Source: Gordius sp. MW1 (lineage: Eukaryota; Nematomorpha; Gordioida; Gordea; Gordiidae). Taken from it: a stretch of DNA of 64,000 bases. How positions within the stretch are numbered: position 1 is the first letter of the stretch; each line of letters begins with the position of its first letter. Below, in pieces: positions 8,087 through 61,400 of the stretch. The position numbers were made by a program, and so were the translations under genes. A model generated the notes under the pieces. That model did no database searches. It saw nothing but the letters and a program-made list of their open reading frames with translations, and was not told where the DNA came from. The DNA lies in contig OZ038530.1 in the NCBI GenBank assembly GCA_964036665.1, forward strand, positions 22,900,001 to 22,964,000. The letters are read 5' to 3'.

Positions 8087-8283
8087 CATGGGCGTAGCCA
8101 GGGGGGGGGGAGGCAGGGGGGGGGGGAAGCGACCGTCTCTATGACAAAAAAAGAATTTTCAATGCAAAAACCCTTTAAAATTAAAGAAATTTCTGTTTTG
8201 CCCCCCCCCCCACCTTAATTAAACTTTTAAACGTTTCGCCCCCCCCCCTCCTCCCTCTTATCCAAAACCTGGCTACGCCCATG
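8087..8283. mobile_element. hAT-type MITE, family A
   Basis: Terminal inverted repeats CATGGGCGTAGCCAGG / CCTGGCTACGCCCATG surround a core with G and C homopolymer runs and the family's AT-rich centre. The flanks CCAAGGTA / CCAATGGA are only weakly alike. Confidence 0.75.
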
Positions 8284-8318
8284 CCAATGGAGCTTCTTAA
8301 TCAAAACCTTTGTAATAC

Positions 8319-8497
8319 CATGGGCGTAGCCAGGTTTTGGATTAGGGGGGGGGCAAAACTCTTAAAAATTAGGGTAGAGGGGGCAAAACATAAAATTTTT
8401 GGATTTTTTCAAGTTTATGGATTGATATTTTTCTCGTAATTTAGGAGAGGGGGGCAGCCCCCCCCCCCTGCCCCTCTTCCCTGGCTACGCCCACATA
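8319..8497. mobile_element. hAT-type MITE, family A, perfect 8-bp target duplication
   Basis: TIRs CATGGGCGTAGCCAGG and CCTGGCTACGCCCACAT. The element is bracketed by the direct repeat TGTAATAC at 8311-8318 and 8498-8505. An 8-bp duplication is the hAT superfamily hallmark. No open frame. Confidence 0.85.
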
Positions 8498-8857
8498 TGT
8501 AATACTATTCATTATCATTATGAAAAAAGGCCTATGAGTTGAATCTTGATCAATTCCATCCTTTCAATTCCTGACCGTATTTCTAATGAAAGTTATATAT
8601 TTCTTGTACATATCTCTTATGGTTCTGACATTCGACTATAAAACTGAAAATGAAAAGCGCTCTTCCCATTAATTAAACACTGTATTTACTTTAATGTCGC
8701 CTTTTAACTTAATACAAAATAGAGTGTTCATTCAATGTTATTTTATTATAAATTGTAAGTTAGAGTCTTGTAATATTTATTTTATTTTTGATACTTTATT
8801 ATAATATTTGCTATATTTGTATGTATTTATGTTTTTAGAGGAGTTAAAATTTAGAAC

Positions 8858-8941: not shown

Positions 8942-11900
8942 ATGCTGAAATTGGTGTTGTGCTTCATCATTTTCATTGCTTTTCAAGGTAAAAAATAATT
9001 ATACGCTTTGTAATATCTGTACTTAAAATATATATTTAAATTGGTTAATAGGTTGTGTTAAATGTGAAAGCGAAATTCATGAATCCCCCACGATTGTTGA
9101 AGATTTGGGAAAGAGTAGGGAAGCATCTAGAACTGACGAAGAACTTGTTAAAAGGTAAAATTTAATTCATTTTTCTCAATAAAGTTTTAAAGGGAAGAAG
9201 AAAGAATTAAGTTAGATGGCTTAAGTGTCGATGAGATTAAAGCACTCAAAGATAAAGCTGAAAAACATCATTACCAAGCTGATGTTAATCGACTAATGAA
9301 ATTAATCATCAATTCACTATATCAAAACAAAGAAGTACTCATTTTTAATAATATGTTAAATTAACTTTTTAGATATTTTTGCGAGAATTGATATCCAATG
9401 CCTCTGATGCACTTGACAAAATTAGATTGCTTAGTTTAACTGATACAGCAGCTTTGGGAGATTTCAATGTCATGGATATCAAAATTAAGGTTTGCATTAT
9501 GCCTTTGTTACTTATTTTAATGTTAATAGGCAGACAAGGAAAATAATATTCTTCAAATTACTGATACTGGTATAGGAATGACAAGAAAAGATCTTCTAGA
9601 AAATTTAGGTAATATCATATATTAAGTTTTGGATTATTGATAAATTGATATATGTATGTATTCTTTGAAATTAATTGTTTTGTAAATTTTTTTAATGCCA
9701 ATTTGTAGGCTGTGTTGTGTGAGTTAATACAATTATATATTATGTTATATAAAGACCACAGCCAGTTTAAAATAATTTTTACCTACCATTTGTCTAATTA
9801 ACCCATAATTTTTAGTAATGGTTAGGACATTTTGATGACCTACTTGAACTCACACTATAAAGATCAATAAACATTAATTAGTTTAATGTATTTATGTTTT
9901 GGATTTTGATGTTATTATTGCAAATACAATTTGCTATTAATTCCTTCAAATTTAATTTAGCTATGTTAATTTTCTTTAAATAAGTGTAAAATTAGAATTA
10001 TTTTTATTTATGGATTGTAATTATTATGCAATGTTAAAACATAATATTATATGATTATTTTAGGTGAATCCTTATTATACTTTGCACTCAGTTGTCCTCT
10101 ATTTTTTAATTAATATTAGTAACATGTGAAAGGGGTTTAAGAATTTTTATTGGTTATTACTAATTTGATCATTTTTATGAGATAAACTATCATTACTCTG
10201 AGTACATAAATCCATAATCAATCTTAAAAAATTACTTTTTTTTGTCAATTCTGTAAAAATACTGTTTATAGGAATAATATTACATGAACAACTTTTATAT
10301 TTATTATCATAATTATTTCTAATTTTTACTAACTTTTCAATTACCTTTTGGGCAAATTTAATTTTATATCTTTGCTAATAAATAATAATTTTTATTGAAT
10401 TTTATATCTTGTTGTTTAACTTTTTTAACACTTTTTGTCGCTGCAAATGCCTTAAGCCGTTTTCACCAGGGAAGAATTTGGGGGTTGTTCTAATAATTTA
10501 TAAAGCCACAATATGTCTATTAAAATCTAAATATTACGCATACAATTTTCAACTTTTTTAACTTACATTAAATTTAACCTAATTAATAAAGAGCAAAATT
10601 TCGAATAAATTGCCAAATATAATTTTGGTCATTTTCCACTTTACTCCTCGCAGGAACGTTGGCCAAATCTGGCACGAGCGAATTCATGAAGGAGATGGCC
10701 AAGGGCGAACGACAGGCCAGCGACTTGATTGGTCAATTCGGGGTCGGTTTCTATTCCACTTTCCTCGTGGCAGACCGGGTCGTGGTGGTTTCCAAACACA
10801 ATGACGACGCCCAATACATTTGGGAATCTGATGCCGAGAATTTCAGCATCGTGAAAGATCCCAGGGGCAATACCCTCACCCGTGGAACTCAAATTAGGTG
10901 ATTTGCATTGATGTGCATGGGCGTAGGCAGGGGGTCCCTCCCCCTAAATGCCGAAAAAAATGTTTTTTCAATGCAAAAACTCTTAAAAATTAAAAAGGAT
11001 GTTTTGCCCCTCCCTTTTAAACTTTTGCCGCTCCCCCGCCCCTAATCCAAAACCTGGCTACTCCCGTGGATGTGCACAAAGTAGTATATATAGCCGTAGA
11101 CTAAATTTTCCACCATTTTAATGATAACATGGTAAAGTAGTAGTGATTATATAGATATTAGTGATTATCGTAAGCTAAATAATCTTAAAAAGGTAATAAT
11201 AATATTGAATTTGGTAGATGTCCGAAATAGCATTTTAAAATAAATAATATTTACACGGTAAATAAGCATTAAAAATGTAAAAGCTGTGTTGAAAGTTTGT
11301 TTTATAATATAGCGCCATCTATATTTTGAATAATATTCATTTATTGAGTGCGTTCAAATTTATAAACTAGTGAGGAAGGTAAATTGACTGTTATAGGGCA
11401 AAATGACATGATTGAAATACACCAGTTGTAGTTTTCAAAATGGAAGAAAATTTGATACATAACACATATTTATATGGCATGAGCAGTCTATCTAGTCAAT
11501 GTATATATATTGTTAGTTTTTATATTCAATATAAATCTTTAAAAAGATTGAAAATAGACACTTAACAGTTATGTTTTGTTTTTATTTTGAATTTAGTACT
11601 CCTTTGAATTGATGATAATTTGCCTTTTTTGGTTTTCTGTGTGAAATTAGCTTGCACCTAAAAGAAGAAGCTTTGGACTTTTTGGAAGAGAATACGCTGA
11701 AGGCTTTGATCAAGAAGTACAGCCAATTCATCAACTTCAACATTTACTTGTGGGAAAAGTCGGTGAGTTTACACTACTTATCATTTATACTCTTTGTCCT
11801 TACTCCCAATTTTGCTCCCCCGTGCAATGAATAATTTTAATTGGCAACCTTTATGAAATATGCGATTCTAATTTCTAATTGTGGCTTTATGGCCAAATTT

Positions 11901-14900
11901 GTATCTTTTGAACCTTCCTTTCCTGGTTGTTAGTATGACCTACAATTATGGGAAACTCAATGCACACTTTTATCATGATGATCAATCATACCAAAGATGT
12001 CGCTCCCTTGCCTGCAACATTATAACTATATTAACACCAAATCTACTACAACTTTTTAGGATTAGATCACGAATGCACTCGAAGTTATGCTATCTATTTC
12101 CCCCCAACATTTTAACGTTTGTATGAAAATTTTAGAAATTCTCTTTATTTCCTCACCCCTAAGCTACAATTTCAGTAGGAAAAAGTTTTATAACTTCCCC
12201 CCTTTTAGGTGCAAAAAGTTGAAGAACCCATAGAGGATAATATGACGGAGAAGAAAAAGAGCGAGGATCAAGACGACGACGAAGCCAAGGTATGCTTGAA
12301 CATTTAACATAGACTAGTGTTGTAAAAATGGGCCGGTTTTGGGTGGTCGACCTTTGGTTTTAGTCGACTAAACATAAGCGGGTTTTTGCAACACTACAAG
12401 GTAATCGCACAAAAGAACCTTGTATAAAAAGGGTGTCTATATAAAGTAGGTATATTTATTATGAGAACAATTATTGTGCTCAGTATTAAATTCAATTTTT
12501 GCTCAGTAGAATAATTAAATGCTCCTCAGTAAAATATTCAAATGCTCACTAAATAATTTAATGTTCAGTAATTAATTGTTTGCTCAGTTATTTATTCAGT
12601 TATTCAGTTATTATTTCTATGGTTGCTCAGTAAATTTTTGCTCATTAACTGAAATTTAATTTTAAAATAAAATTAATATTTAAGCGAGATTTGAACCAGC
12701 AATGTCAATTCATAAATGTCCTATGTGTTATCTATGTGGTAAAAAGACATGGGTTTTGTTTAGTCGACCTTAAAAGTTCGACTAAGAAAAAGGACAGAAT
12801 TCATTTTTGTGTTTTGGTGACAGTTCTCAAAATTATCGTTTGTAGAGCTAAATAAATTTTTTAGATGAAAATTGATGAGCTAGATGTATCGATATAAATT
12901 ATTTCCCCCTCCCCCCCCCCTTATTTTTTGACCCTCTCTCTCAGGGGAGGGGGGGGGGAGTGATTTGCTCCCCCCCCCCTGTTTTTTGATCTTCTTTCTC
13001 ACCCGGGGGGAGGGGGTTATATGCCTCCCCCCCCTTTTTTCACCCCTCCCCTTATTTTTTACCCTCTTTCTCATCCGGGGGGGGGGGGTTATAAAATATA
13101 AGTGCAAAATAAATTAATATCACAAATTATGAATTTATATTACTGAGCATTTTAGCAAAATAACTGAGTATTATTAATTTAAAGCTGAGCATTTTAAAGT
13201 TAATTTACTGAGCATATTTGAATTTTTAAAATACTGAGCACATTTTACTTAGCATTTTTTAATTTATTACTGTGCATTTAAATAACATCCATTTATTATC
13301 ACTACATGTAGGCTAGTTGTTCGCATTTCAAAGTTTCTTCTCGTGTACAAGACTTTTTATAACCATCACGTATTATCGTGCATTATTACTCCTACTTGGT
13401 TAAATTGAATGAATAAAATCAAAGCGGGCGTAACGGGGTCTTAAAAGACCCCAGAAACTAACGCGTCTACGGCAGATTGATAAAATAGTAATTTACGAAT
13501 TTTTAGGTGGAAGAAGAGAAGGACATCAAAACGAACACCGTAGAAAAGACTGTCTGGGACTGGAAATTAATGAACGGCGCCAAGCCTATATGGACCAGAA
13601 AGTAAGTTTTTAAAGGCACCCAGCGCGTTCCTCTCGCCAGGGAGTTTTTTTTATCGCAAATGTGCCACTATAATAGTCGGGTGGTTTTTAACGAATTTCT
13701 ATCGGGAATGGTGGAGAATAAATTGTTAAATAATGGAATCAAAAAAATAGTGCAAAAATGATAAACTCTTCTTAAGCAGATCGATATGGATATATATAAA
13801 AATGGGAATGGGCGTAGCCAGGGGAAGGCAAGGAAGTTTGGCTGCCCCTCTCTAAATCTAAAAATTTGTTGAAATTTATTAAAATTATCGCTATATTGCT
13901 AAAATTTCAAAAAATGATTATTTTGCCCCCCCCCCTCTAATTCATATCCTGGCTACGCCCTTGAAAATGGGTAAAATATTACTTCCCCAGTCTCGAGGCG
14001 TCTTTTAAATTGGGGATTAGTTGGTCGTATTCGATTCAATCATATCACCCTTTTGTTTTAGACCTAGCGAGGTGGACGAAGAAGAGTACAAAGAATTTTA
14101 CAAGACGATCAGCAAAGAGAGCGACGACCCACTGGGTCACATCCATTTCACGGCCGAGGGCGAAGTCACTTTCAAATCCATCCTCTACATACCCAAGAGC
14201 CCCAACGTCAACATGTTTTCGGAATATGGCAAAAAGGTAACGCGTTTAATTTTCTTATACACATGTACATTTAATTTCTTTTGTTCCTCCTTTACGTGTG
14301 CTGGGTTTCTTCAATTTAGCTAGGCGCTTAAGTGTATATATTAGTGTCGTAAAATGGCTGGGGTTTGCTTGATCGACCTTTGGGTTTAGCCGACAGTACA
14401 CAAACAGATCGACGGTTTTTTGATTTATAATTTTTAGTCGCAGCATGAACACAAATGTAATTTGGCCCAACATTTGGTCTGTTTACGTTTATTCCACCAA
14501 AGAAAATCAAGCAGTTCTTACAAAATAAGTATATACTGAGTGATCCACCCCTCTGGTCTAATTAGGCTATTCTATGGTAAAACGCAACTTGCACATTTAT
14601 ACGCCTAGAAAAATACAATAGGTGCACATCTAGAATGGAGTTATACTTATTAAAGGCAGTCAGCGACATTTTAAATTCCAAGCACTTTTGCGCGTTAAAT
14701 GCCCTAAATTGAGGGTTAATTTTTTATATTGCAACCATTAATTAAAGTTGAAAACGTTAAAAGAATGAAAGGGAAGAGGTAAAATTCAAAAGATACAAAA
14801 TGCCCAAACCGATAATAATCAGGTCTGGCATTTAAAATTTTGCGATTAGGACCCCCCGAATTTTTTGTTTATAGCAAAAAGTGAATTTTAATGTTGTAGG

Positions 14901-17900
14901 TGAATCAATTTGTTACTTAATTCTATTTTTAAAGGCCTATTTCTTTTTTTCCGTCATACGCCGCAGGTTGACCACATCAAACTGTACGTGCGCCGAGTTT
15001 TCATAACTAGCGATTTCGAGGATATGATGCCCAAGTATTTAGCCTTCGTTTTTGGCATAGTGGATTCCGACGACCTGCCCCTCAACGTATCTCGCGAGAC
15101 GCTGCAGCAGAACAAGTTGTTGAAAGTCATCAAGAAAAAGCTGATCCGCAAGGTGCTAGACATGATTAAGAAATTTTCCGAAGCCGACTTCAAGGTGTTT
15201 TGGAAGGAATACAGCACAAAGTAAGTTTTGCGCGCCCTCCCCCCTCTCATTAGAAAACTATCTTTGATTTATGATGGAATTTATAGGCTTTTGCTCGGGT
15301 TTTTCCGCGAAGTAACATTTAAGGTGCCAGCCTTGATCTACACGAGGAAAGTTGGCTGGGTTTAGAACACGTTCTCTAGCCTTACTTCTAGATTTGTCTA
15401 TGCACAACTCTTCTATCCCATAATGTTTTTTAAGCATGATTTTTTGGTTTTCCAATCGCGGGTAGCTTCACCTTTTATCGTGCTAACCAAAATATATGAA
15501 ATTTGGCAGATGCTTAATATAGTAATTGTAATAAATTGTCGTAAATCCACTTTGTACGGTTACTGAATAAGGCTCATAATAGTTGCAGAAATTATTATAG
15601 CTCTTTCCCTTCAATTTTTTGCGATTTACCCTCTAAATGGTTTATGGAGCAGCGCCAGCTATACTCTAAGTCTTTCCCCACTCGCCACATTTATCGAAAT
15701 TTTGACAGGTATGTATGGTGAAACAAGTAAAAGTGCCTAATTTTGCGCACATTGCATCGTTGTAGTAGGCTACATTTATCGCACCTCTGATATCAATTGA
15801 TTTCCGATTTATAGGGACCCTACATATCGTGTCTCAAATTTTTAGCAAGTGCAGATCATACTCATTTTATTTTGACTTTAACAACTTTTAACCTTAATGG
15901 TGATACAAGGGCTTAAGCTATGTGTTGTATGATATTTAGCATGAAGTTAAGCTTAAGAGTGGTCGAAGACGTGGCCAACCGTAATATACAGGAATAAATT
16001 TTTTTTGGTATAAATCAAAAATTCCGTGGCGGCATCCTAGCCTCAAAATGCAAAAATGGGCTACATGGTTCATCTAAAAAACACAAAGTTTTGGGTGAAA
16101 AAACTAGAAACAGATTATTGTTCAGCGCAAAATTCTCTATCAGAATTATTAGTCTGATTGCTGGATGGAATCACGAAGTCAATATTTGTAGGCCTGCCTA
16201 ATTATTTTAAAAAGAAACTTATTTTGGAATAAGTTGTATTGTACTGTGTGTGTATTTTTGTATGTATGTATGTTATTTAGCATGAAGTTGGGAGTGGTTG
16301 AAGACGCGGCCAACCGTAATCGCCTAGCCAAAATCGTGCATTTCTATTCTTCGTTCAACGAAACGGAACCGGTTAGCTTGTCATCCTACGTTGCCCGCAT
16401 GAAGGAAAAGCAAGATGCCATCTACTTTGTAGCCGGACAGTCCATCAACGAGGTTTGTTGAAATAAATAAGGGGGGTCATAAAAATTTGTTGAAGCTCAT
16501 AGACTTAGCTTCTAGCTTAAATATTGAAAAAATGGGAATAACGTGCGTTTTCTCTTAAAAATAAGCGATGAGGCTTTCATAATGATGCCTTTTTTGCTCC
16601 TACGTTCATTGTTTATCGTAATTTGTCGAGCGACTTTTGGTTGCTAGTTTTTTTTGGCCTTGAAAAGGTTTTTTATACTGCTGTGCTAGTGGCGATCTCT
16701 CATCTACCAAAAACAATCATCATCACTTCTTTCACTCAAGGGGTACGAGGCGCGAAATGTTCTTATATAACACTTTAGGTTTGGTTTGTTGTTTTAGGTC
16801 AAGAATTCGCCTTTCGTTGAAAAATTACTGAAAAAGGGCTACGAAGTCTTATATTTGACTGAACCCATCGACGAATATTGCATACAAGCCCTACCCGAGT
16901 TTGAAGGCAAAAAATTCCAGGTAAATAGCTATTAGTTTTTAGCAGCATGTAATAAATAATGTTATTGATAGCTATTATTGTATTGTAGGTAAGAATTTTA
17001 GCTTTTGTAACGCAAATTAAGAACAGGCTATTCCGTCTTCGGGTTTAATATACTACTAATCAACCAAGAAATACCATTGAATATCGTTTTGTTTATTACG
17101 TATAAATAATGAATTACTAAAAAGTAAAAGCTCCTCATTTAATAAAAACTATGCTAGAACGTAGCTAAAGAGGGTCTCAAACTGGACGAAGGCAAGAAGG
17201 CCAAAGCTAGGCAAGAGCAACTCGAGAAGAAATTCCAACCTCTTTTGACTTGGTTCAAAGATGTAGCCCTACCCAATTCGGTAACGCCCCCATATCATTT
17301 GTTTTTTTCAAAATTATTACTCCCTCTCCCACCCCCTTAACCCGAATAACGTCATGAATTTGCGATACTAACACACCATAGTTAAGCAATTTATTTATTT
17401 ATAATAATTGTTGATTGACTCTCGGGCCATCTGAAGATCGAAAAAGCCACCATCTCCCAACGTCTAGCTAAATCGCCTTGCGCCATGGTTGCCAGTTCTT
17501 ACGGCTGGTCCGGCAACATGGAGAGACTCATGACTTCTTCGGCCTACGCCAAATCCGGAGACCCCATGCATCAGTAAACTAGACGACACCCAGCTGAGCT
17601 TGATATTCATCGACCATTTTTAGACTCGACTCACGCGCGCGCATTGACTTTCTACATGCTCGCTTGCTTGCTTCAAAAATCTCTGCCTGCTAGTGTCGTA
17701 AAAACGGCTGGTGGTTTAGTTGGGGCGGCCCTTGGTCTTTGTCGACCTCTAGGCTTAGTCGAAATTTGAGAAACGGACCAGAGTTGACCGTTAGACTTGG
17801 TTAAACCAAAGGTCGACTAAGCAAAACCCAGCCGTTTTACGACGCTAATACCTGCTTCCCCATTTGCTCGCATTTCACTCGCTTTTCTAGGTGATGTTTG

Positions 17901-20878
17901 TCATCTTTCTTTTTAATGATTCCAAACGTGACGAACGTTACCGAGAAAGCCTCGTAAATATTACCTTTTTTCTATTGCACTTTGCTTCCGCCCCCTGCTG
18001 TGCTTGATAAAGGTGGAAAAAGTGCTCATCTCCAAACGCCTCCTCAAATCTCCCGCCGTTTTGGTGGCTCAATTGTACGGCTGGGACGCGAACATGGAGC
18101 GGCTCATGAAATCCTCGGCCTACGCCAAAGCGAACGACCCGAACAATCAGTAGATTCACTTTTCTCTCGCACTTACGAGGAGCTGTAACGTCTTTACCGC
18201 CATCCCCTCCACCTTTAATAATCTCATTTCGCACGAAAGGCTCTGTAATGACCGTCCTATTCCCCAATGCTTAATCACTAAGTCCCCCTTGGCCTTTTTT
18301 GAACTTTACCTTAAGTGTACATAGAGCCTGGCCGTGTGATTAGACATAGCTCTTGGGCGTCAATTGCTTTTTAACTTGCGCTTTCGCCTTTAACGAGACC
18401 GACTCGACCACAATCTTTGACTTTGCGTGTATTAGTGTCGTAAAAACGGCTGGGTTTGTTTAGTCAACCTTTGGTTTTAGTCGACTAAACGTAAATATAC
18501 CAAAGATTTTTTGGTCTATTTTTCTTACTCGACCACTAGGCTTAGTCGAAATTTGAAAAATAGACCAGTATCGACCGTTTGTCTTAGTTAAACCAAAGGT
18601 CGACCAGACAAAACCCAGTCGTTTTTACAACACTAGCGTGTATGCATATGCAACTTGATATTCTTGATGAAACAAACCCATGTTTAAATATTATTTTTGT
18701 TTAATTCGCACATCCTAACCTCGCAAGGCATTACGCTAACATGAAAAAAACGATGGAAATCAATCCGACTCATCCCATCATCAAAGCCCTTTACAGCAGG
18801 GTTGAAGTACGTGTTTTTAAATTACCCATCTATCCTAAATGTTAGAATGTCTTTATTTACTCTCTCGGCTTTAAACATAAAATTACTCTACAGGATGTTC
18901 GATATGAGCTTTGTGAATGCCTTTTTTGCACATTTATATCGAAATGGTTCAAATCTCATGCTATTTGACTGATCCTCGAGGCGTTATAACTTTATAATTA
19001 AGAAAAACGCCTTTAATCGACATTCTATGTTCAGTTTCCTTATTAATTACGGAATCAAAAAATTAAACTAAAATCATAAATTTGCAAGTGAAATATCCCA
19101 TTTTTTGTGCCTAGGCGAGCCCCGACGACGAGACTGCCAAGGATATGGGAGTACTGCTATTCGGAGTAGCTACTATGAGGTCAGGTTTCGCCCTGACCGA
19201 CACCAAAGATTTCGCCGAACGCGTGGAAAAATTGATGAGAAAGGGTTACGACATTTCCGACTTTGCTGAGGTAAACGCGCAGAAAATTAATACATCCTTA
19301 ACCTTTATCATCTTCTTGCTATTTAAATGATTCTAATCCCTATTATTTATAACGAACTTTACGTGTTGTGCTTACCCGACCACCTAATGCTTGAAATGTT
19401 TTGAATAGTTTGCTGTATTAGGTGTTTAGGCTAAAGTGCGACATATTTTGTGTCTACAACAAAAATTTTTATCGCGCCGAGTTGTTTAAAGCTTCTTTTG
19501 AGGTTATACCATAAAAGAAAGGATGTCGCGAAGGATGCGAAAAATAAAGTGTGTAAGATATACAGTGCATGTATTTGGATTTTTTTATAATGGCCTTAAT
19601 CGGTCGGACAAACATTTCCTTATTATCTCCTCGAAACATTTGCAATTGATGCTGGAATCCTTCGCATCGCCTTTAAATCACGATCGCATAGAGCTTGTTT
19701 CACAAAATTACACACACGCCTAAAAAGTGGTATCGAAACAAACTACGAATATTTCATTTTCTCTCATCTTAAAACTTCCCCCCGTTTAAAAATTTCCATA
19801 AAAATTGCAAGTTAAAGGTGTCCGTTTTGGTGGTCATAAATTTTGTGCTACCCTTTTTTGTGCTTTGCATCAAGGTTGAAGAGGAATTGGAAGAATTTGA
19901 GGACGAGGAGGAACAGGGTGGAGAGGGCGAAGAAGAAGGCGAGGAAGTAGAAGATGAAGAAGATTCAACTACGACAGCACCTCCCCTCTCCCAAACTGAA
20001 ACACCATCTGCTGCTGCGGACGACGAAAGTTCCAAGGTAAAAACAACGATAATCTTATGAATATTGTTGTATAAAATCGATGGGTTTGGATTGATAACGT
20101 AGGTAGCTATGGTCCATCGTCAGGGGGAAAAAAATAAAAAAGGAGAAGATGAAGTCTCAAAAAATAATTGCCCGAAATATCGCGCATTTTTCTCTATCTA
20201 CGATCAATCCAAACCCACTGATTTTATACAAACGGATTGCCAATTCTACATTATATAAACGATAATTTTGTACAGTGAATGCACACTAAAACCTGCACGG
20301 GTTTGAAAAATTCAATATGCTTTTGGGTTTAAAAAGGGTGGACTTTGCAGTCTCTAGTGCACACTAGCTATAAAAATGTTAAATGGGTGCCATAGAAATA
20401 TTTATAGCTCTAGACTTAGAAATGCACGGTTCCCCCCCCCCACCATTAAGAGAGCACTAGTTTTTAAAAGTACCCTTTATTTACTGGTTCATCACATCTT
20501 AAACTTTTATCAAAACTATCTTGGATTAAAAGGTCCTAAAGTGAACAAATTTTTAAATTGAAATTGTTTATTTGCCTAGCTTAATTGGTAATCGTCGATA
20601 ATTATTTCACATTTTTTTTCTCGGCACCAGTTTAAAAGCCCTAGGCTTGCTAATAGCATACCTTTATAGGCATGGGTTAGATGTTTAGTAAATAAACGAT
20701 CGCTAACAGGCGCCTGTAAATATCTTAAACTCAATAAGGTATTCAATTTTTCTATTATTTTGCCTATCATCATACTTGAAGCATACAAATATTTAACGAG
20801 AAAACTTTAACATTAAAATTTTGCTCTGCCTAATTTACTTTTTGCCATTGTTTAAAGGATTTCAAGGATGAACTTTGA
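8942..20878 (+). CDS. HSP90B1: Endoplasmin (GRP94), ER HSP90 chaperone, complete
   Basis: ATP-driven chaperone of the ER lumen that folds secreted and membrane clients as a dimer. Nineteen coding exons: 8942-8987, 9052-9154, 9193-9334, 9373-9489, 9530-9608, 10654-10897, 11651-11762, 12209-12289, 13507-13601, 14062-14236, 14967-15220, 16281-16452, 16798-16920, 17158-17280, 15a 17437-17573 or 15b 18013-18149, 18728-18806, 19115-19270, 19875-20036, 20858-20878. All introns are GT-AG and phases fit, giving 806 codons (human about 803). Visible: signal peptide (1-16); [16 protein letters not shown] pre-N region; ATPase motifs [14 protein letters not shown] (about 100), DTGIGM (about 148) and GQFGVGFYS (about 188); acidic linker; WDW middle domain; [16 protein letters not shown] from about 623; Glu-rich tail; C-terminal KDEL on a 21-nt last exon. 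Introns 2-4 are 38-40 bp, later ones up to about 1.2 kb. Confidence 0.96.
10918..11068. mobile_element. hAT-type MITE, family A, in HSP90B1 intron 6
   Basis: Ends TGGGCGTAGGCAGGG / CCTGGCTACTCCCGTG are flanked by the perfect 8-bp direct repeat GATGTGCA (10910-10917 and 11069-11076). The insertion begins 21 bp after the exon 6 donor. Confidence 0.85.
11093..11501. mobile_element. Non-autonomous element, family E
   Basis: Ends with GAGCAGTCTATCTAGTCAATG, the right terminus shared with 33941-34391 and 52135-52812. The left end GTAGACTA is a decayed match to their CATAGACTA start. It lies in intron 6 of HSP90B1. Confidence 0.5.
12315..12396. mobile_element. Short foldback MITE, family B
   Basis: TAGTGTTGTAAAAATGGGCC at the left and a GGGTTTTTGCAACACTA end at the right. 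The TTTGGTTTTAGTCGACTAAAC core is kept, so this is an internally deleted copy of the family B palindrome. Confidence 0.7.
12400..13330. repeat. Foldback region with TTACTGAGCA subterminal repeats (family C)
   Basis: The left part (12440-12660) carries repeated TGCTCAGTAA motifs and the right part (13139-13300) their complement TTACTGAGCA, making a large imperfect inverted repeat in HSP90B1 intron 8. The 10-mer recurs in 61625-61760. The centre holds a family B half-copy (12745-12785) and the C/G-run block at 12902-13088. No coding sequence. Confidence 0.55.
12902..13088. repeat. Three tandem C-run/G-run hairpin units
   Basis: Roughly 60-bp units of the form poly-C, TTATTTTTTGACCCTCTTTC, TCACC, poly-G, repeated three times. 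Each unit can form a hairpin of C-run with G-run, and the G-runs could also form quadruplex structures. Confidence 0.65.
13807..13964. mobile_element. hAT-type MITE, family A, in HSP90B1 intron 9
   Basis: TIRs AATGGGCGTAGCCAGG / CCTGGCTACGCCCTTG are bracketed by the perfect 8-bp direct repeat AAAATGGG (13799-13806, 13965-13972). Confidence 0.85.
14342..14526. mobile_element. Foldback MITE, family B, in HSP90B1 intron 10
   Basis: Starts TAGTGTCGTAAAATGGCTGG and holds the TCGACCTTTGGGTTTAG block. The right half is degraded, ending near TTCTTACAAAATA. Confidence 0.6.
15940..15997 (+). pseudogene. Decayed partial duplicate of HSP90B1 exon 12
   Basis: Intron 11 contains a copy of the acceptor region and first about 45 bases of exon 12 (16281 onward). 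Both have TATTTAG|CATGAAGTT followed by GTGGT(C/T)GAAGACG(T/C)GGCC and AACCGTAAT. The copy has a 6-nt insertion ([15 protein letters not shown] against [13 protein letters not shown]). After the homology it runs to an in-frame TAA at 15995. If spliced in it would truncate the protein. It is probably a dead exon copy; a poison-exon role is possible but unsupported. Confidence 0.75.
17437..17573 (+). CDS. HSP90B1: HSP90B1 exon 15a (canonical version)
   Basis: A 137-nt exon, acceptor ctgaag|ATC, donor CA|gtaaac, starting in phase 0 and ending in phase 2. Key stretches are [20 protein letters not shown] and [13 protein letters not shown]. It keeps the HSP90 C-terminal-domain signature SPC.(V)..S.YGW(S/T).NMER, including the conserved cysteine. 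It joins correctly to exon 16 (G|CATTACGCT, giving Q-H-Y). Exon 15b is an alternative with the same length and phases. Confidence 0.93.
17691..17847. mobile_element. Foldback MITE, family B, between exons 15a and 15b
   Basis: Ends TAGTGTCGTAAAAACGGCTG and CAGCCGTTTTACGACGCTA, with the TCGACCTCTAGGCTTAGTCG core in plus orientation. Flanks CTGCCTGC / ATACCTGC match at 6 of 8 bases. Confidence 0.8.
18013..18149 (+). CDS. HSP90B1: HSP90B1 exon 15b (alternative, divergent version)
   Basis: A second 137-nt exon, acceptor gataaag|GTG, donor CA|gtagat, same start and end phases as 15a. Key stretches are [20 protein letters not shown] and [13 protein letters not shown]. It matches 15a at about 29 of 46 residues and has no stop or indel. 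Differences fall on usually fixed CTD positions: SPC becomes SPA, SS becomes QL, WSG becomes WDA. The flanking introns are unrelated to those of 15a, so the duplication is old and the frame has been kept. Using 15a and 15b together would shift the frame. Existence of the exon is strongly supported; its use in mRNA is inferred. Confidence 0.85.
18433..18635. mobile_element. Foldback MITE, family B, perfect 8-bp target duplication
   Basis: Near-palindromic 203-bp element, TAGTGTCGTAAAAACGGCTG to CAGTCGTTTTTACAACACTA, flanked by GCGTGTAT at 18425-18432 and 18636-18643. It lies between exon 15b and exon 16, in the same orientation as the copy at 17691. Confidence 0.88.
20069..20230. mobile_element. 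Inverted-repeat MITE, family H, in HSP90B1 intron 18
   Basis: Ends GTATAAAATCGATGGGTTTG and CAAACCCACTGATTTTATAC. The core CCCGAAATATCGCG is shared with 42600-42735. A half-copy is at 33893-33940. Confidence 0.6.
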
Positions 20879-21946: not shown

Positions 21947-24900
21947 TCAAAAATACCCTAATAATGATGAACGCGTCATTGTGTCTGCGGAATCGCTACT
22001 TTCCCACTGAAAAAATCCGCATTGCAAATCCATCTTCTTTTTGCACGTGTAAAATGCACGACCTCGATTGGGACCTTCTTTCTGCACCGTTTTACGGACA
22101 GAGGCCTGATTACACTTGCATTGGGGGAGCGAGTCTGATTCTATGTCCACTACCGCACGAGTCAACACATCAAATGATAAGTTTAAGGTGGGATTTTGAT
22201 TTAAACGCGAATTATGTTACAACCTAGACTGCTTATCAGCTCAAAAATGGGTGCGCGGATTTCCGCCATTTTTAAATGTGTACAAATAAGACAATTTCAT
22301 ATAGATTATAGTTATTTTGGTTAATTAGTGTTTTTAAAACGTAATGAAAAAAATAGTGAACTAGATGAACATTAAAGTAGCATTTTAAAATATATATTAT
22401 TTACAAAATTCGATGTGATATTAATGCAATTCAGTACCATCTGCATTTTATTAAATGATCCTTATTAATATTCCTTTAACTTATGAGGAAGGTAAATTCG
22501 ATTGTTCTATTTTAACAATGGGGTAATACACTGCAGAAAAACACGGGATTGGGAGATAGTTAAATTTAAAATAGTGTATTTATTTGAGCACTCTATGATC
22601 ACAAAAGATTTAATGCGAAGCTTTCGTCAAGTCATTTGTTAAAGGGATGTCTAATGAGATTGGTGAAGTGAAAAGAGAAAATATTGCTTTTAATTCAAGG
22701 ACAACTTTATTAATGGGGAAGATCAATACTAAATAAATTTAGACACTTGCGACACTCTAAAATCAATTCTATTATCCAGTCAGCCCTTTGAAAAACCCAT
22801 ATTTCCTCCATACTTGAACCTTCAGATCCTGCCCTTGAAGGTCGAATGCGTCCTGACGGTTCGTTAGTCCCATGGGAAAATGGTCTCTTTTTAAAGTGGG
22901 ATTTTACTTGCATAGACCTATTTGCCCCCTCTAATCTTAATTATGACCCCATGGCCCTCGCTGAAGAACGCAAGCTCCAAAAATACAAGGCCCTTTTGGA
23001 TTCTAGTATTTTTATCCCAAGAGTTTCCCCCTTTTCAGGATCCTATGGAAAAATGGCGTTGGCTTTATTCAGAGAAATAGGCAGGCGATCCCCTCCCTCC
23101 AAACATTCCCCCGCATTTTTATTGAAACAATCAATAGCTATCTTAATTGCAAAATTTAATTTCATATCTTTTTTGGATTCCTGTCCTCTTCTAAAAGAGG
23201 AAGATGAAGACATATTACTCATAAGATGTTTTTTTAAATATAATTATTATATAATTGTATCATCTAATATTATGTTTAGATATATATCAATAAACTAACT
23301 TCATCTTTAAAAAAAATAATTAAAATGTGTAAATAGTCGAGATGGTAGAGAGATGAAGTCTAACATTGTTTAAGCAGTAGTGGATCGACAATAGAGGTAC
23401 CATACTAATGACTAGTGTTGTAAAAACGGGTGGGTTTTGTTTGGTCGACCTTTGGTTTTAGTCGATTAAACATAAACAAACCAAAGGTTGGACCAAAAAA
23501 TCTTTGTTTGTTTATGCGACTTCTTTGGTCTGTTTATGTTTAGTCGACTAAAACCAGAGGCCGACCAAACAAAACTCAGCCGTTTTTACAACACTACTAA
23601 TGGACACAATAAAATGGTTTAATAAATCTAATTTTAAATTTACGGAATTGTCTATTACTAAAGCTGAGATATAATTAAACATTATTAATTGCTATGCAAT
23701 TTATGGGCTCACTTTCCAATTTGTTTTGTCACGCTATTCGGCGTGCGCACCGAACGTGGATGTCACGCTGTTCGTGTCACGCACCGAACGTGGATGTCAC
23801 GCACCGTTTTGTTTACTTTTAATTTTTGTTAATTTAACCAGTTTTTGGGTTCGAATCCCGGGTTTTTTTTGACTATTATGATTGTTCCTGTTACTACCAT
23901 TGATAATAAGACTTATTGGCCGTCCGCTGGCTGCTGACCACTGGAAAAAAATGACCATTTGGCTAAAATGTGAATCCAAGTTTATTTTTCCGTTTTTTTT
24001 GCCTCTTATGATTGTTCCTGTTACTACCATTGATAATATTCCTTTTTGGCCGTCCGTTGGCTGCTGACCAATGAAAAAAACGTGGATGTCTTGCACCGAA
24101 TGTCTTTTTTGTTTACTTTTAATTTTTGTTAATTTAACCAGTTTTTGGGTTCGAATCCCGGGGTTTTTTTTGACTATTATGTTTGTTCCTGTTACTACCA
24201 TTGATAATAAGACTTTTTGGCCGTCCGCTGGCTGCTGACCACTGGAAAAAAATGACCATTTGGCCAAAATGTGAATCCAAGTTTATTTTTTCGCTTTTTT
24301 CCGCCTATTATGATTGTTCATGTTACTACGATTGATAATCTGACTTTTTGGCCGTCCTCTGGCTACTGACCACTGGAAAAAATGGTCAGTGTCCGAAAGT
24401 GTGAAGCGAAATTTTTTTTCCCGTTTTTTTGACTCTTATGATTGTTCCTGTTACTACCATTGATAATATGACTTTTTGGCCGTCCGCTGGCTACTGACCA
24501 TTGGAAAAAAATGACCAGTGTCCGAAAGTGTGAAGCGAAATTTTTTTCCCGTTTTTTTTGACTCTTATGATTGTTCCTGTTACTACCATTGATAATATGA
24601 CTTTTTGGCCGTCCGCTGGCTACTGACCATTGGAAAAAAATGACCATTGGCCAAAGTATGAAGTAAAATTTTTTTCCTCGTTTTTTTGGCTAACATTGAC
24701 TTATAGAGTATCTGTTGGTAGTGACCAATGAAAAAAATGACCATTTGGCCAAAATGTGAATCGAAAATTTTTTTTCGTTTTTTTTGACTTTTATGATTGT
24801 TTCTGTTAATACCATTAATAATATGACTTTTTGGCCGTCCGCTGGCTACTAACCATTGGAAAAAAATGACCATTGGCCAAAGTATGAAGTGAAATTTTTT

Positions 24901-27900
24901 TCCTCGTTTTTTTGGCTAACATTGACTTATAGAGTATCTGTTGGTAGTGACCAATGAAAAAAATGACCATTTGGCCAAAATGTGAATCGAAATTTTTTTT
25001 AGTTTTTTTTGACTCTTATGTATTAATAGATTGTCTTTTGGTATATTACTATTTTTGGATTTTGTAAGGTTAACTAAATGCATAGTGCTAGTTTACGACC
25101 TACACGTCAACAACCCGTTTTTAATTGCTATGCAATTTATGGGCTCGTTTTTTTGTGTCCGTCCGTCCGTCCGTTGTCCGTTACCTCCCTATCTATTTGC
25201 ATTGGGTATATTAGGTTATCGCTTTTTTAAATTAATGCATGAGAAAGAGGTGCCCCACCCCTCATCTCTATCAAGAGGTGCCCCACCCCTCATCTCTATC
25301 TCCCTCGCTTTCGGGCGGGGTCGGGTTTTAATTGCTACGTTAAATTAATGCATAAGTATATCTATATTTAAATTTTGGTAATTGCTATGCAATTTAACTA
25401 GTTTTGGGGTTAGAATCCCGGAGTTTTTTTTGACTCTTATGATTGTTCTTGTTACTATCATTGATAATAAGACTTTTTGGCCGTCCGCTGGCTGCTGACC
25501 AATGAAAAAATGACCATTGGCCAAAATGTGAATCCGAGTTTATTTTTTCGTTTTTTTTTGACTATTATGATTGTTCCTGTTACTACCATTGCTATTATGA
25601 CTTTTTGGCCGTCCGTTGGCTGCTGACAAATGGAAAAAAATTACCATTGGCCAAAATGTAATTCGAAATTTTTTTTGACTATTATGAATTTATATCCACT
25701 TTTACCGTGTCCTGGCTGCTGACCAATGGAAAAAAATGACCATTGGCCAAAATGTGATTCGAAAATTTTTTTTAGTTTTTTTTTGACTATTATAAGTTTA
25801 TATCCACTTTTACCGTGTCCTGGCTGCTGACCAATGGAAAAAATGACCATTGGCCAAAATGTGATTCGAAAATTTTTTTTTTCGTTTTTTTTGACTTATG
25901 AATTTATATCCACTTTTACCGTGTCCTGGCTGCTTACCAATGAAAAAAAATGACCATTGGCCAAATTTTATATATAAACTAAAAATTTATTATAGATGGT
26001 CTAACAGACAGCCAACTATGTAATATATATTTTTAACCTTATAAATGCTTATAAATTTTTTTATTGGGTTAATATATTTCATTTAATTAGATTGTGATTT
26101 CATAGAAAACCTAAAAAGTAATATTTAAAAAAATAATATAGGTATTAGATTCTAATTTACGATAAAATATATCGATAGAAACTAACACAAAATTCGAAAC
26201 CTCCTTCAAAGGTATAATCATAGCCCGTTATTTCTAATTAAATTGAATCTACTATTAAACTCAAACACGAATTGTACTTTATTAGATGGCGCGCGTAAGT
26301 TTATATAATTAGTAAAATTTTTCTACGTGTCATAGATATTACACCGCACGTGTGGCAGGGAAATGTCCGATATTTTTAAAATATTTTAGGAATCTGAAAA
26401 GGTTATTTTACCCCCGACCGCCCTGGGCACCTACGGGTAAAGTTTCGAGCGAATCGGGCTGGTAGTTTAAGAATTTAGCCCTTTTTTAAAACTAAAAAAA
26501 AACTTTTTTTTAAATTTTTTTTTACATTAAATTAATATTTTGTTTTTGTTAATACCATTGATAATAGGACTTTTTGACCGTCCGCTGGCTACTGACCGAC
26601 GAAATATATTGATTTTCTAAACATAAAACACAACTTTATTATTTCATTATCTATATAAATAACATAATAACTTCTACTATTTTAAAGCCACCATGGTATA
26701 GTGGTTATAGCGCCGGCTTGTGAACTGATGGTGTGGGGTTCAAGTCAGGGAGGGGACAAATTTTTTTTTTAAATTTTTTTAAATTAAATTAATATTTGTT
26801 CATGTTAATACCAATGATAATATGAATTTTTGACCGTCCGCTGGCTACTGACCAATAAAAAAATGACCATTGGCCAAATAAATCGAAATTTCTTTTCGTT
26901 TTTGAATTGGTTAACATTGATAATTACCCTATGTCCTCCCCTACAAGGGCCTATAACTAATTAACTAATTATTTTGCATCTAATACCCCCTATAGGCATT
27001 CTCGCCCCTTCCCATCTTTCTCGCCCATAAATTGCATAGCAAATATGCTACGTTTATACGGAGTATAGAAGAGTTCCCCCTTCCCCTCTTCCCTTCCCCT
27101 ACTCCCCTTCCCTTCTCCCCCTTCCCACGAGGGCCGAAGGCCCGAGTTTTATTTTTTAAGGTTAAGTTTGTCAAAAGCAACAAAATTAAGAGCTAAATAA
27201 AGTTATAAGAGCTCAATTAAAGGGTTATTTATCAAGGATTATGGAAATGATTATGTCTACGATGTAAAATTCCTTAAGTATATGTGTCAAAATTAATATT
27301 TTAAAAATTTATTTATCCTTATACATATATGTATATAGAGCTTTCTATAAGAGGTCTACACCAGAGACCCGACCCCACATCGGTTGGGTTCAAAAATTTG
27401 AAAGAACTTCGGGTTTGGGGTTAAAACTTTGAACCAGAGATCAAAAAAGCCCGCCCGGTTTACGGGCGGGCAACTTTCTTAAAATTAGACTTTCCGGCGG
27501 GCACTATAAAAAGTTTAGGGGAAAAAGACATTATTAAAGTAGTGTATTCTTTTTTTCTTTCCCCCAAAAAATGAAGAATGAAATTACAAATTTTATCAAA
27601 TACATACGATATTAATTCAAAAAAAAATTAAAAGGGTACCTTCAAATTATGTAATCGTCAAAAAATAAACAATACAAAAAATCCGACGGACAATCATTGG
27701 CGTAGCCAGCATTGGAATTAGAGGGAGGGGGCAATAATGATTTAGGGAGGGGCAAAATAATCATTTTTTTAATTTTAGCCATAATTTTATGAAATTTCAA
27801 CGAAATTTTAAATTTAGAGGCCCCCCCCTTGGCTAAGCCCATGCGGACAGTATAAAAACAGTAAGTTTAAAATAAGAATTCATACCCGAACCCATTCGTT

Positions 27901-30900
27901 CGCTCAGGTGGTTGGTCTTCCTACTACTACTACTACTACCCCCATTAAAAGATGCTTTTTTCCTTCTCCCTTTTCCTTTAATATTTCCCATCCCAAAACC
28001 ACCATTCTCGATAGTGTCTCCTCCTTGCATTGGGTAATCCAACTCGTCTTGCCACTGAAAAAAGGTGCATTGTCCATCCTGCTCTGGGCATTTGTAAAAT
28101 TTCCGACCCGCGTTCGTGCCCTGCTTAGTGGTCAGGATTTGAGCCGATTTTCCGCACAAACAATAAATAACCGGTTCCCCCAACTCGTTGTAAACGCGTG
28201 GGGTCTGGTATGCGGTAGATAACTGCACGGGTGAAGTCACACTACCACTACCAAGTTTTGCTCCAGTCTAAAGAGACAAAATGAATAGTAAATAGTTACT
28301 CTAAATTTTAATGGACGTAGCCTCTAAATCCAAAAATTCTTTAAAATTTATTGAAATTATGGCTAAAATTTTAAGAAAAATTACAATTTTGCCCCTCTTT
28401 AAATCATTATTGCCACCCCCCCCCCCCCCCTCTAATTACAATCCTGGTTAAGCCCATAAATATTTTTATGATATAATCAAGGACATTCTTTACTTTCGTA
28501 AGAACATGTTTATCAACTTCATATTTACAGATTTCATCTCCACGTTTAAATTTGTTACATAGTGGAACCCTCCCCCCCCTTCCCCTACTAATTTTATCAA
28601 TCTAACCTTAACACTTGGTAACAAATATAGTCAATTAAGCCCTATAACTCCTCAAATAGAATATCACAGGACATTTTCGCCCCGTCCACCTAAAATTACA
28701 ATGCTCTGACCCTTTTAACTTTAAATTTTTTACCCCTATTGTTGTTGCCTCAAGCTCTGAGACTTTTGGACTAGCCGCCATTAAACTTTTTAAAGAAATC
28801 AGCCGGCGCTGCCCTGTCTCTAAATATTCCACCAACTTTTTACTTACACAAAAAATAGCTGTATTTTAATCGCAAAGTCTAATTTTAAATCCCTGACCGA
28901 CAGCTGGCAGCTTCTAACGAATGATACATGCGACGCTCTCGATTTATGATTAAATTTATTTATTTTTTCTTACCCCGGCTTTTATATTTCATATATTTCC
29001 CATTTTTTTACTTCGCCTTTATAAAGTTTTTAAATCGAATAAACAAAATTTGAATCAAACAAAATATTAAGCCCTATATAACTTCACCATCATTACCAGC
29101 AAATAAGAACGATCCTTTTAGTCTCGCAATATTAAGCAACTCCGGCGTTGATAAAAGAGATAAGTGAAAACACATCACAAAAGTAAGAATTATTTTACGT
29201 GTGCTGATTGTGGTCTACTGCTAAGGGTCGAGACCCCAACAGCGGGTTGTGCTGGGGCATCTATAGTTGATGACCGATTTTGAGGGGGTATTCTAATGTG
29301 GAGTGCATCAAACAAAATGGCGTCACACCCACCCAAACAAGTGGTATACTCCGAAGGAAAGGTGGGCGGTACTTTGTTTGTGTCGAATGTTAGAGTTACC
29401 AAGTTGTAACGATTTACTGTATAACATTAATAATTATATTATGATAATGAGAAATCTATTTTAAATTAAAATAATAATAACAAAATTATATTAAAGACTA
29501 AGATTCTAGAAAAATCGTGATGGTCATTAAGTTGTGAAGAAAATATTAGGGCAAAAAAATAAACAGACGTAACTGCAATGAGCTCGGCTCTAATTTTAAT
29601 GTATTAATTAGTGTTATCAAAACGGTGTGGTTTTGTTTGGTCGATCTTTGGTTTTGGACAAATAAACCTAAACAGACCAAAGCAATTTACAAAATTCCAA
29701 AAACCACGCCCTTTTTACAACACTAGTAATGGTCTAACCGCGGTGTCAAAAAAATATACTGTTTTTCTCCATTTTTATCAATGCCTCATCGTTAATAAGG
29801 TATCAAATGTACCAACGACACTCTAACAAGGCTTTGTTACAGAGCCGACATTATATTCTACCTACTAACCACAGGCCAAAGGCCTCAAGACCAATCACTA
29901 TCATCATTGAGCCCAAATCAACCCGTCCGAAAGTCAAAGGTTCGGGCAAAGGACCGGGCTTTTCTAGTCTCGGCTAAGGATTTCAAATTACGCTTTCTAC
30001 AATCTTTAGGCAATGTCTAAACTCTCATCCCCATTTTACACCATTCTCTTCCTTCACGGACCTCTACATGGCAAACTTCGAGCCCAAAACAAGCTACTTG
30101 GGTGCTTAGCCTTGCTTAAGAAAACTGTCTCGCCCAACAGTCACATGGGGCTAACATGGGGAGCTAAGCAGCCAGATCTATTGGATTAGCCTAACCACAA
30201 CACGCTCATATCTAGAGTTGTTAAATTGCTAACTTGCTTCAACTCCAGACGCAAGCACGCACACTGGGTTGCTTAATATGCGCGTTAGCACAATATGTGC
30301 TCGCTGTTCGGTGCACTAGGCAGAACAGTAGCGTATAAAAATGCTCGAGGGCCGAGCATAAACTAGAGCATATGGTAGCTGGAGTTGAAGCAAGTGAATA
30401 ATTTAAAACTCTACTCATATCACAGTAGCAGAAAACCAACATGATATCCACAACAACTTCAACTTTTCACGGGTGATTACAGATTCCACTAGGAAAGGGG
30501 GGTGGGTGGTCACTTTAACATAAAAGGATGCCCCCGAGCGCAACCCAGCTGATTGGCCCTCTCGCATTTGGCTCCCACCTGACCGATACTCGTACCTTGT
30601 TCAGATACGAACGTAACACCCAATGGGTTTACTTTTCCAGAATAGACTGAAGAGGCAGACATCGACCAGGGTTTTTGGGAAAAAACGAATTCTCAGAGGT
30701 AGCAGACGGGAAAGAACGGAACTAAATCCCGAGGTGATCACGTGACTCTACACTATTCAATCACGATCACAGCTTCGGAAAATTATTCGTCCGACTTATT
30801 AACCCTTACCCCTTTCGCAAAATTTATCACATTTATACCGGCTAACTCAATTTTTCGCATTTTAGGCGTTAATAAAAGCACCTGGTGAAATTGATTGCGA

Positions 30901-58479: not shown

Positions 58480-61400
58480 GTGATTTAAGGTGTCAAAAAA
58501 TTTCAACCTGTCTTTGTGGCAATTGTAATAATTGTCATTTAAAGAATTAAATGTAATGGGTGTCAAGAAGTATTTACAATTATAAATTTAAAATTTGTCA
58601 ACAGCCCCACATTTCTTCGGCGCTACTCTAGTATCACTTTCAAAATCTGATGGCGGAATCCGACTTATAGCAATGGGGTCTGTTCTACGCAGACTTTGTT
58701 CCAAACTGATCATAAAACGCATCAAAAGTAAAGCTGTGGAAATCCTGGCACCTACTCAACTCGGTTTTGGCGCAAAAGGAGGATGTGAAATTGCTTCACA
58801 CGCGGTAAGAATTTCTCTTACCACCCCAACCCCCTCGGTGATCGCTAAAATTGATTTCAAGAATGCTTTCAACTCCATTTATCGTTCCCACTTCCTTAAT
58901 AAAACATACAAACATTTCCCTGAATACTCCGCATTTCTTAATCCATGCTATTCACCAGTTTCAATATTACAATTTCACAAACATACCATCGATTCTAGTG
59001 ACGGTATTCAACAAGGCGACTCTTTAGGGCCGCTTCTGTTTTCCCTTGGCATCAAAACTTTAGTTGATAGCCTTGCAACAAAGTTTAATTTGACTTTAAA
59101 CAATTGGTACTTTGACGATGGTACCATCAAAGGCGCCCCGATGATGTTTTTGCCGCTTTGAGATACCTGGAAATCGAATCAACAAACATCGGACTAACTC
59201 TAAATCAATCTAAAACCGAAATTTGTCCCCTTAATGCACCTCTTATTGGCAATCAAGATTAATTATCTTACACATTAATAGATCCTTCCTCTTTGACCCT
59301 ACTCGGATCCCCAATTAGAGGCTTTATCCCCATTTTAAAATTGTTACAAGAAACCAGTCGCAAACTAGCAGACATGAAAAGCCTATTTAAACACCTACCT
59401 GCCCACCAAGCATTTTTTCTAGTAAAAAACTGCTACTCAATCCCTACATTAATGCACAGCTTCCGGTCCTCTGCAGTGTTCTTACATCACGAGGCCTTGT
59501 CCAAGTTTGATACAGAACTTAAGTCTTTAACCGAAGAAATAACCAATCTAACCCTAGGTTCTACACACTGGCAACAAGCTTGCCTTCCAACAAAACGGGG
59601 GGGGGCTAGGCTTAGGCTCAATAGCCTCCGTATCTCTTTTCGCATTTAAATCAAGCCGCATGTCAAATGAAAGCTTAATATCTTAACCCCACAACATGAC
59701 AACTTACTCGACGTCGCCTTCCAACAGTGGAAGGAATTTAACGTCCCTACTAAATTCCCTGAAGTAAACTCCCAAAAGTGTTGGATTGGCCCCCTGTCCG
59801 AGTGCCTCTTAAAGTCTCTTATTAATGGCGCTTCGGCAGAGGAGCTTCCAGCGCTTAGGAGCTTGGCTTCACGCTCAGGTCACGAATGGCTCGAAGCTTT
59901 CCCAAGCCGTAACCTTAGTCTTCTCTTATCCAACACCGAATTCCGCTTCGCAGTAGGCCTAAGATTAGGATGCAATATAGTCTAAACACACTTGATCACT
60001 TTGCAATAATTCCGTAAAATCGAATGGCCATCATGGCCATCACTGTAATCGCAACATAGCCCGGTACTTTCGACATACCGCGGTTAACAAACTTGTACAT
60101 ATCTATTTCACCAAAGCTGGTTTCCCCTCAATTCTCGAACCCACAGGCCTCTGTGATGACAACAAACGACCCGATGGCCAAACTTTAGGTGCTTGGGAAA
60201 AAGGACTTAGTTTAGTATGGGACTATACATGTACTGACTTATTTGCCCCATCTAATCATAACAAAGATCCCTTGTCCTCAGCCAAGGCTCTAAAAATTTC
60301 AAAATACTCGGATATTAACAATACTACTATAATATTTTGTCCCATTGCGACAACTACCCTAACAACCTTTGGCCCCCTAGCCTTAGAACTTTTTAAAAAA
60401 ATAGGGAAACAAATTTCATTGCTATCCCATGATAATCGCGAATCGTTTTTCATTCGACAGAAAATCGGCATAACCATCTGTAGATATAATTCATTAGCCA
60501 TAACCGAATGTTTTCCTAATATTTACGATTCTTAGCTTTTTAATTTATTTATCTCACCTTTACAAAATATGTAATTTTCTTTACCAATAAATTAAAAAAA
60601 AATTTATCTTGGTGACAATTGTCGTTTAGAGAGCTAGTTGTTTTAATAAATATTGTTGAGTTCAGGTGTAATAAAATTGTTACAACTATGAAGACTAAAT
60701 TTGTCAATCTAACTTGGGGAGAATTGTCATAATTGTCGTTTATAGATAAAAATTCTTTAAACGAAAAATGGTGGGTTAGGTTGTCATAGTTACAATATGA
60801 AATTTAAATTGTCAACCAATTTTGGTGATAATCAATTCATTTTATTGGGGGGGGGGGGGGGAGGGGGGGGTGAGGGGTTGTTTCCCAAATTGTAGAGCAG
60901 TCTTTAAAAAATGATTCTAGTATTAAAATTGTTAAAATAAGTTTGAAACTGAAATTTTTTGTTTAAATCTAGATGTGTTAAACGAAATCCCTTCACAATT
61001 ACCTAGATCACATATTTATAAGTTTTTGAAACTTGTCATTATCTTGTAATTTTAATTTATTAATGCACACAACCTAAAGGTTATAAGTTTGTAAAAATAT
61101 TAGTTAAAATAAATATATGAATGGTGCGTTTTAATCTATTCAGCTTTATAAACGATATAACAATCGTCACTAAGATAAAATAAAAATTTATTTGGCTCTA
61201 TAGGTGAGAATTATGACAATTGTCACTAAAATAGGTTGACAAATCTAATTTTTATGTTTAAATTAATCATATGACACCTTGACATATCAATTTTTTTTGA
61301 AAGAAATTATTTAACTCTATGAACGACAATTTTGACAATTGTCCCCAAATTAGGTTGACAAATTTAAATATTATATTTGTAACAACTTTGAGACGCCCTA

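Follow-up and report, generated by a model that had tools for sequence, protein, structure and literature searches.

The GRP94 (HSP90B1) gene of Gordius sp. MW1, located in the window (the whole stretch of DNA analysed, 64,000 nucleotides), carries two versions of one coding exon, 15a and 15b. With a probability of about 70%, we read them as an old tandem duplicate that is likely spliced in a mutually exclusive manner and would yield two ER chaperones with differing client-contact segments. The layout of the pair, its coding constraint and the logic of its reading frame all fit mutually exclusive exons. The first-pass annotation had called this arrangement the classic mutually exclusive layout: layout, constraint and frame logic hold, in a GRP94 that ends in KDEL, whereas the use of 15b and the exclusion of one exon by the other are predictions.

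Exon architecture and reading frame

The gene is built of 20 coding exons when 15a and 15b are both counted, and of 19 in either isoform. Its extent and identity are supported by exon joining, translation, the match to solved structures (PDB set) and a tree; the features on which the argument turns are as follows.

8942..20878, + strand: GRP94 (HSP90B1) gene
17158..17280, + strand: exon 14, upstream partner to 15a and 15b; open frame, phase 0 out, donor TCG/GTAACG
17437..17573, + strand: exon 15a, canonical version (GWSGNMER); 137 nt, phases 0/2, GT-AG
18013..18149, + strand: exon 15b, alternative version (GWDANMER); 137 nt, phases 0/2, GT-AG
18728..18806, + strand: next exon (exon 16 of the first-pass annotation, number 17 in the full list); phase 2 in

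The two versions are adjacent, equal in length and similar, with matching phases and intact splice dinucleotides; the 137-nt length, the entry in phase 0, the exit in phase 2 and the GT-AG sites are all as originally claimed, coordinates included. Each version joins cleanly to exon 14 (at 17280) and to the exon at 18728, as had also been reported. The last codon of exon 15 is split with the following exon, which completes the CA/G codon of 15a and 15b alike. Exon joining, exon 20 included, yields 15a-only and 15b-only isoforms that are both open over 806 aa and end in KDEL. The claim that using both exons or neither destroys the frame was reproduced in the same way: double inclusion shifts the frame and meets a stop inside 15b, and skipping of both shifts the frame and meets a stop just past the start of exon 18728..18806. 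Both premature stops precede several further exon junctions and, because these products are out of frame, decay of the double and skipped transcripts is predicted.

These dead-end transcripts could themselves be the point of the arrangement. Exon 15b would then act mainly as a dosage switch, with both-in and none-in transcripts decaying to lower GRP94 under some condition, and no second protein would be made. The frame shifts and early stops upstream of further junctions are what such a switch would produce, but a poison exon needs no matching phase, no open frame and no GRP94 residues, and 15b has all three; we regard a dosage role as improbable.

Two further features of the gene were observed. 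Third-position GC is low (0.12-0.31) in exons 2 to 5 (9052-9608), where introns 1 to 4 measure 38-64 nt; it is 0.49-0.76 in exons 6 to 18 of the full list (10654-19270), where introns 5 to 18 measure 156-1217 nt, and composition and architecture switch abruptly between the two groups. Exon 12 has been partly duplicated into intron 11: at 15926-15985, its 5' end and acceptor (16267-16320 in the original) recur in part, as a 23-nt block at 96% identity and a 29-nt block at 93%, separated by 6 extra bases, before the sequences diverge. No donor can be made out by eye, and the copy is a truncated exon duplicate within the GRP94 gene.

Gene identity and nearest relatives

Judged by its best matches, the gene is GRP94/HSP90B1. 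Residues 5-796 of isoform a align to an Endoplasmin chain with 1032.8 bits, the best solved-structure match in the PDB set, against 635 bits for the best cytosolic Hsp90; the similarity to endoplasmin is full-length and the highest among Hsp90 types. The translation starts with a hydrophobic N-terminus and finishes with DFKDEL followed by a stop (20858-20878), so that it ends in the KDEL signal for ER retention.

In a FastTree analysis of 83 GRP94-type rows, Gordionus included, and 2 cytosolic rows, the window protein is sister to the GRP94 of Gordionus (Nematomorpha) with support 0.998. At 51 columns the residue of the window protein occurs in just one or two of the rows; Gordionus has that residue at 22 of these columns, and no other row has it at more than 3. 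Over the whole protein, Gordionus ranks first of 94 aligned rows for both isoforms, at 67% identity. Protein searches limited to the exon returned, for the 15b region, three significant matches, the best from Gordionus and the remaining pair resembling cytosolic Hsp90s; for the 15a region, Gordionus stands eighth in the list.

A six-frame search of the genome (212 Mb, 12 contigs; E up to 0.1) gave 7 candidates, all of them scored: six are stretches of the GRP94 gene, and the seventh, on a different contig (C6), is an Hsp90 of cytosolic type. A paralogue or pseudogene elsewhere was rejected, since the search matched only these two genes.

Divergence, coding constraint and age of the exon pair

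Exons 15a and 15b are identical at 93 of 137 bases and differ at 44 of the 135 bases in full codons. They encode the same residue in 28 of 45 full codons, or 29 of 46 with the junction codon, which bears out the earlier count of about 29 of 46, and both frames are open, as the earlier remark on missing indels and stops requires. The differences divide into 17.2 synonymous and 26.8 non-synonymous (pS 0.56, pN 0.26), with pN/pS 0.46 (bootstrap 95% range 0.26-0.75; values of 1 or more in 1 of 2000 resamples). An estimate of dN/dS between the versions, proposed in the first-pass annotation as a check, gives about 0.31, from dN 0.31 and dS 1.03; the pairwise ratio mixes both branches and 15b is the faster, so the constraint on 15b itself is weaker than 0.31 suggests. 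The near-saturated synonymous divergence indicates that the duplication is old and, taken with the dN/dS, that 15b has probably been translated.

Polarisation by Gordionus and the wider family, read from the alignment, assigns at least 3 changes to 15a (positions 17, 33 and 41) and about 12 to 15b. Exon 15b thus appears to evolve faster than 15a, yet it does not look free of constraint. At the 26 positions conserved in at least 95% of 92 GRP94-type rows, 15a keeps 23 residues and 15b keeps 18, and the departures of 15b from the consensus sit at more variable positions than a random choice would give (P 0.017). The third-position GC of 15b, 0.76, is the highest of the 20 exons (the introns of the gene have 0.16-0.46 GC); as local GC-biased conversion could contribute, we count it as moderate evidence.

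The 15b branch was also simulated under neutrality, starting from 15a as a proxy for the ancestor; four distances were combined with two base compositions, at 4000 runs each. An open frame alone survived in 14-35% of runs. Retention of 28 residues alone occurred in 30-33% of runs at a distance of 0.25, in 2-3% at 0.35 and in at most 0.13% at 0.45-0.55. The joint condition of an open frame, 28 or more retained residues and a third-position GC of 0.76 or more, which leans on the GC term, was reached in 0 of 4000 runs in seven of the eight settings; the remaining setting (0.25 substitutions per site, AT 0.50) gave 0.05% of runs. Coding constraint is therefore seen on both exons, in pN/pS, in the simulations and in the conserved core, and is weaker for 15b's own branch.

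These data bear on the possibility that 15b is a leftover duplicate, spliced in almost never or never. All GRP94 would then contain 15a, and 15b would still be open because it decays slowly. Such an exon could well have the weakest donor in the gene, as 15b does, evolve faster than its partner and depart at positions invariant in the family; the share of neutral runs that keep an open frame is not small, and the seemingly non-functional partial copy of exon 12 indicates that duplicated fragments do arise in this gene. Slow decay sits poorly with synonymous sites near saturation in an exon that has gained neither indel nor stop, with joint simulations that almost never yield 15b, and with the retained conserved core and the top-ranking third-position GC. 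We consider a leftover duplicate unlikely, and a translated 15b remains the preferred reading.

Serine at exon position 35 occurs in 15a, 15b and Gordionus and is absent from the other 91 of the 92 GRP94-type rows; leucine at position 31 is likewise common to all three and occurs in 3 of the 92 rows. On these shared residues, the duplication most simply arose in the hairworm line. Identity to Gordionus is 35 of 46 residues for 15a and 29 of 46 for 15b. S35 and L31 also weigh against a chimeric 15b that acquired part of its sequence through gene conversion with cytosolic Hsp90. V1, V4 and A26 are common to 15b and the cytosolic Hsp90 of the genome and are not found in 15a, but across the first 30 codons 15b matches that gene at 54 of 90 bases and 15a at 55 of 90, and 15b has S35 and L31 in common with 15a and Gordionus. 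A chimeric origin is very improbable, and tandem duplication of a GRP94 exon is retained as the source of 15b.

In Gordionus, one protein cluster (P0003) has two members on one contig and an a-like representative; the two members could be isoforms. No b-type representative was found among the database proteins searched, which were clustered at 90% identity and could hide one, and a search with 15b alone gave two candidates, neither significant. Because such clustering could fold a b isoform into an a-type representative, this negative weighs little.

The exon encodes most of the client-binding region

GRP94 is said to fold a restricted set of clients (PMC13061670). Its client-binding region is described as aa 652-678, of which a 653-660 deletion removes GWSGNMER, and GWXGNMER is given as essential for TLR interaction (PMC4868323, the latter point citing earlier work). 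Integrins, unlike TLRs, are described as depending on Met658/Met662, and pro-insulin-type clients as binding an overlapping site (PMC7465916). Exon 15 corresponds to residues 631-676 in the numbering of PMC4868323 and covers 25 of the region's 27 residues.

In 15b, GWSGNMER becomes GWDANMER, and both methionines are retained. Several substitutions fall at positions that are otherwise nearly or fully invariant: S20 (92 of 92 rows) is replaced by Q and S25 (92 of 92) by D, neither of which occurs in any of the 92 rows at those positions; A16 (91 of 92) is replaced by V, also found in 0 of 92; and G26 (91 of 92) is replaced by A, found in 1 of 92. In addition, C15 (82 of 92) is replaced by A. By residue numbering, this cysteine presumably aligns with Cys597 of Hsp90alpha. 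S-nitrosylation of Hsp90alpha Cys597 has been reported to inhibit ATPase activity (PMC4980810).

In a predicted model of the Gordionus protein (mean pLDDT 72.8), the equivalent of the exon, residues 630-675, forms strands at 630-635 and 645-649 and a helix at 655-667. Ten-residue pLDDT means range over 57-91 across the exon and are 71 and 57 around the helix, which is accordingly of low confidence. From the substitutions in the client-binding region, we infer that 15b may change client choice.

Splice sites and intron pairing

Splice sites were scored with matrices built from 17 sites each, so the scores are noisy. The 15b donor scores 0.57, the lowest of 19 donors, against 4.98 for 15a and 3.60-9.39 for the other 17, and lies at the 62nd percentile among all GTs in the window. 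Among the 19 acceptors, that of 15a is the lowest and that of 15b the fourth lowest, at the 26th and 37th percentile, respectively, among all AGs. Regulated exons often look like this, and a failing exon would look so equally.

Two simple exclusion mechanisms were considered. Steric block by a short intron was rejected, as the intron between 15a and 15b, at 439 nt, is too long. A U2/U12 clash does not apply, as the splice sites are ordinary GT-AG by eye.

The introns downstream of each version carry copies of a palindromic, transposon-like repeat, placed by repeat and inverted-repeat finding.

17688..17852, strand not assigned: palindromic transposon-like repeat, copy 1, approximate ends; intron between 15a and 15b
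18429..18640, strand not assigned: palindromic transposon-like repeat, copy 2, approximate ends; intron after 15b

The copies are 84% identical over 103 nt. The first-pass statement that the flanking introns are unrelated is thus correct in part: both introns carry one abundant repeat, and beyond it they contain no direct repeat at matching positions, by a repeat finder of limited sensitivity that missed the 68%-identical exons themselves. A haplotype or assembly duplicate was rejected on this ground and on the 44 of 135 differing bases. The repeat family gave 3764 first-look candidates genome-wide, of which 40 were scored. Further copies were seen by eye near 12320 and 14345, in two further GRP94 introns, with ends like TAGTGTCGTAAAAACGGCTGGGTTT. 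Given this abundance, separate insertion into the two introns is the simpler reading, and chance insertion is a fair explanation for the repeats around 15b.

The repeats include inverted arms around 15b (17803-17851 and 18429-18477; 49 nt, 82% complementary). When the 1447-nt region is folded at minimum energy, the arms pair across the exon. Pairing between the two introns around 15b is stronger than in all 60 of 60 shuffles; with the repeats cut out, 18% of shuffles are as low. Tested for docking-selector pairing, intron 14 pairs with either later intron at an energy matched by 2 of 60 shuffles each; with the repeats cut out, 5% of 60 shuffles are as low for the intron between 15a and 15b, and 45% for the intron after 15b. 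A 17-nt direct repeat alike at 15 of 17 positions (17589-17605, after 15a; 17993-18009, before 15b) was set aside as a signal, since by a rough hand estimate it is within chance for 1.4 kb. A search of 17000-19200 against Rfam gave no match at gathering scores.

Proposed mechanism of exon choice

We propose that one GRP94 exon was duplicated in tandem long ago to give 15a and 15b, and that one exon at a time would be spliced in, producing an open protein through to KDEL. Nonsense-mediated decay would clear transcripts that contain both exons or neither. The choice between the exons may be made by weak splice sites together with base pairing between introns, and the transposon-derived inverted repeat around 15b could loop that exon out. 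Under this scheme, 15a would be the default, and 15b may be reserved for particular tissues, stages or clients.

A bolder version can be formulated, in which the only GRP94 gene of hairworms has a splice-switchable client site, with GWxGNMER rewritten, client specificity changed and the transposon-derived hairpin around 15b as the switch. We hold this full combination to be speculative and doubtful. If the proposal is true, a natural exon swap over the client-binding region would amount to a natural experiment on how one chaperone picks its clients. It would also be a case of an animal obtaining variety in an apparently single-copy chaperone from splicing and not from gene duplication.

Other features of the window

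Repeated runs of G and C, some beside GGCGTAGCCAGG, were seen by eye at 8100-8500, 12910-13090 and other places, upstream of the gene and in introns. On the minus strand, the open frame at 27833-28267 encodes a GRF zinc finger (PF06839, E 1.4e-16) and may be an exon from a gene of the DNA-repair or topoisomerase type, and 23797-24282 is a 161-codon open frame with internal repeats by eye and no Pfam match. A reverse transcriptase fragment lies at 58592-59161 (PF00078, E 1.4e-14). Two other frames, at 59996-60535 and 22792-23298, have no Pfam match and resemble each other by eye (PSILEPT..., SSILEPSD...), which suggests a common retroelement end.

Comparison with known systems

The gene resembles GRP94/endoplasmin in its full-length match and KDEL end; it differs in having a second version of exon 15, with S25D, S20Q and A16V each found in 0 of 92 GRP94-type rows. 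Nematomorpha are reported to be gene-poor, with 8,717-11,114 genes in three species, in the accessible part of PMC11603191.

The first-pass annotation knew of no described case for HSP90B1. Among the titles and abstracts listed from open-access papers, none describes a tandem mutually exclusive exon pair in GRP94, and to this extent the remark stands. It needs qualifying in that rMATS 'MXE' events are listed for human HSP90B1 in microglia data (PMC11346782). That case has the gene family and the event label in common with ours; it differs in that MXE there is a software event class, and the accessible portion of the paper makes no mention of tandem homologous exons or of a client-binding segment.

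Parallels come from insects, where mutually exclusive tandem-duplicated exons are known in Dscam, 14-3-3zeta, Mhc, MRP1 and srp, and where the major exclusion mechanism is given as intron pairing of a competing or bidirectional kind (PMC6071210, as far as its available text goes). Like those pairs, 15a and 15b lie next to each other, are homologous, agree in length and phase, and shift the frame when both are included. Unlike them, they belong to an Hsp90-family ER chaperone, encode its client-binding segment and are a predicted pair. Tandem homologous mutually exclusive exons are a known kind, judging from that text, and the client-binding exon pair of GRP94 likely belongs to it.
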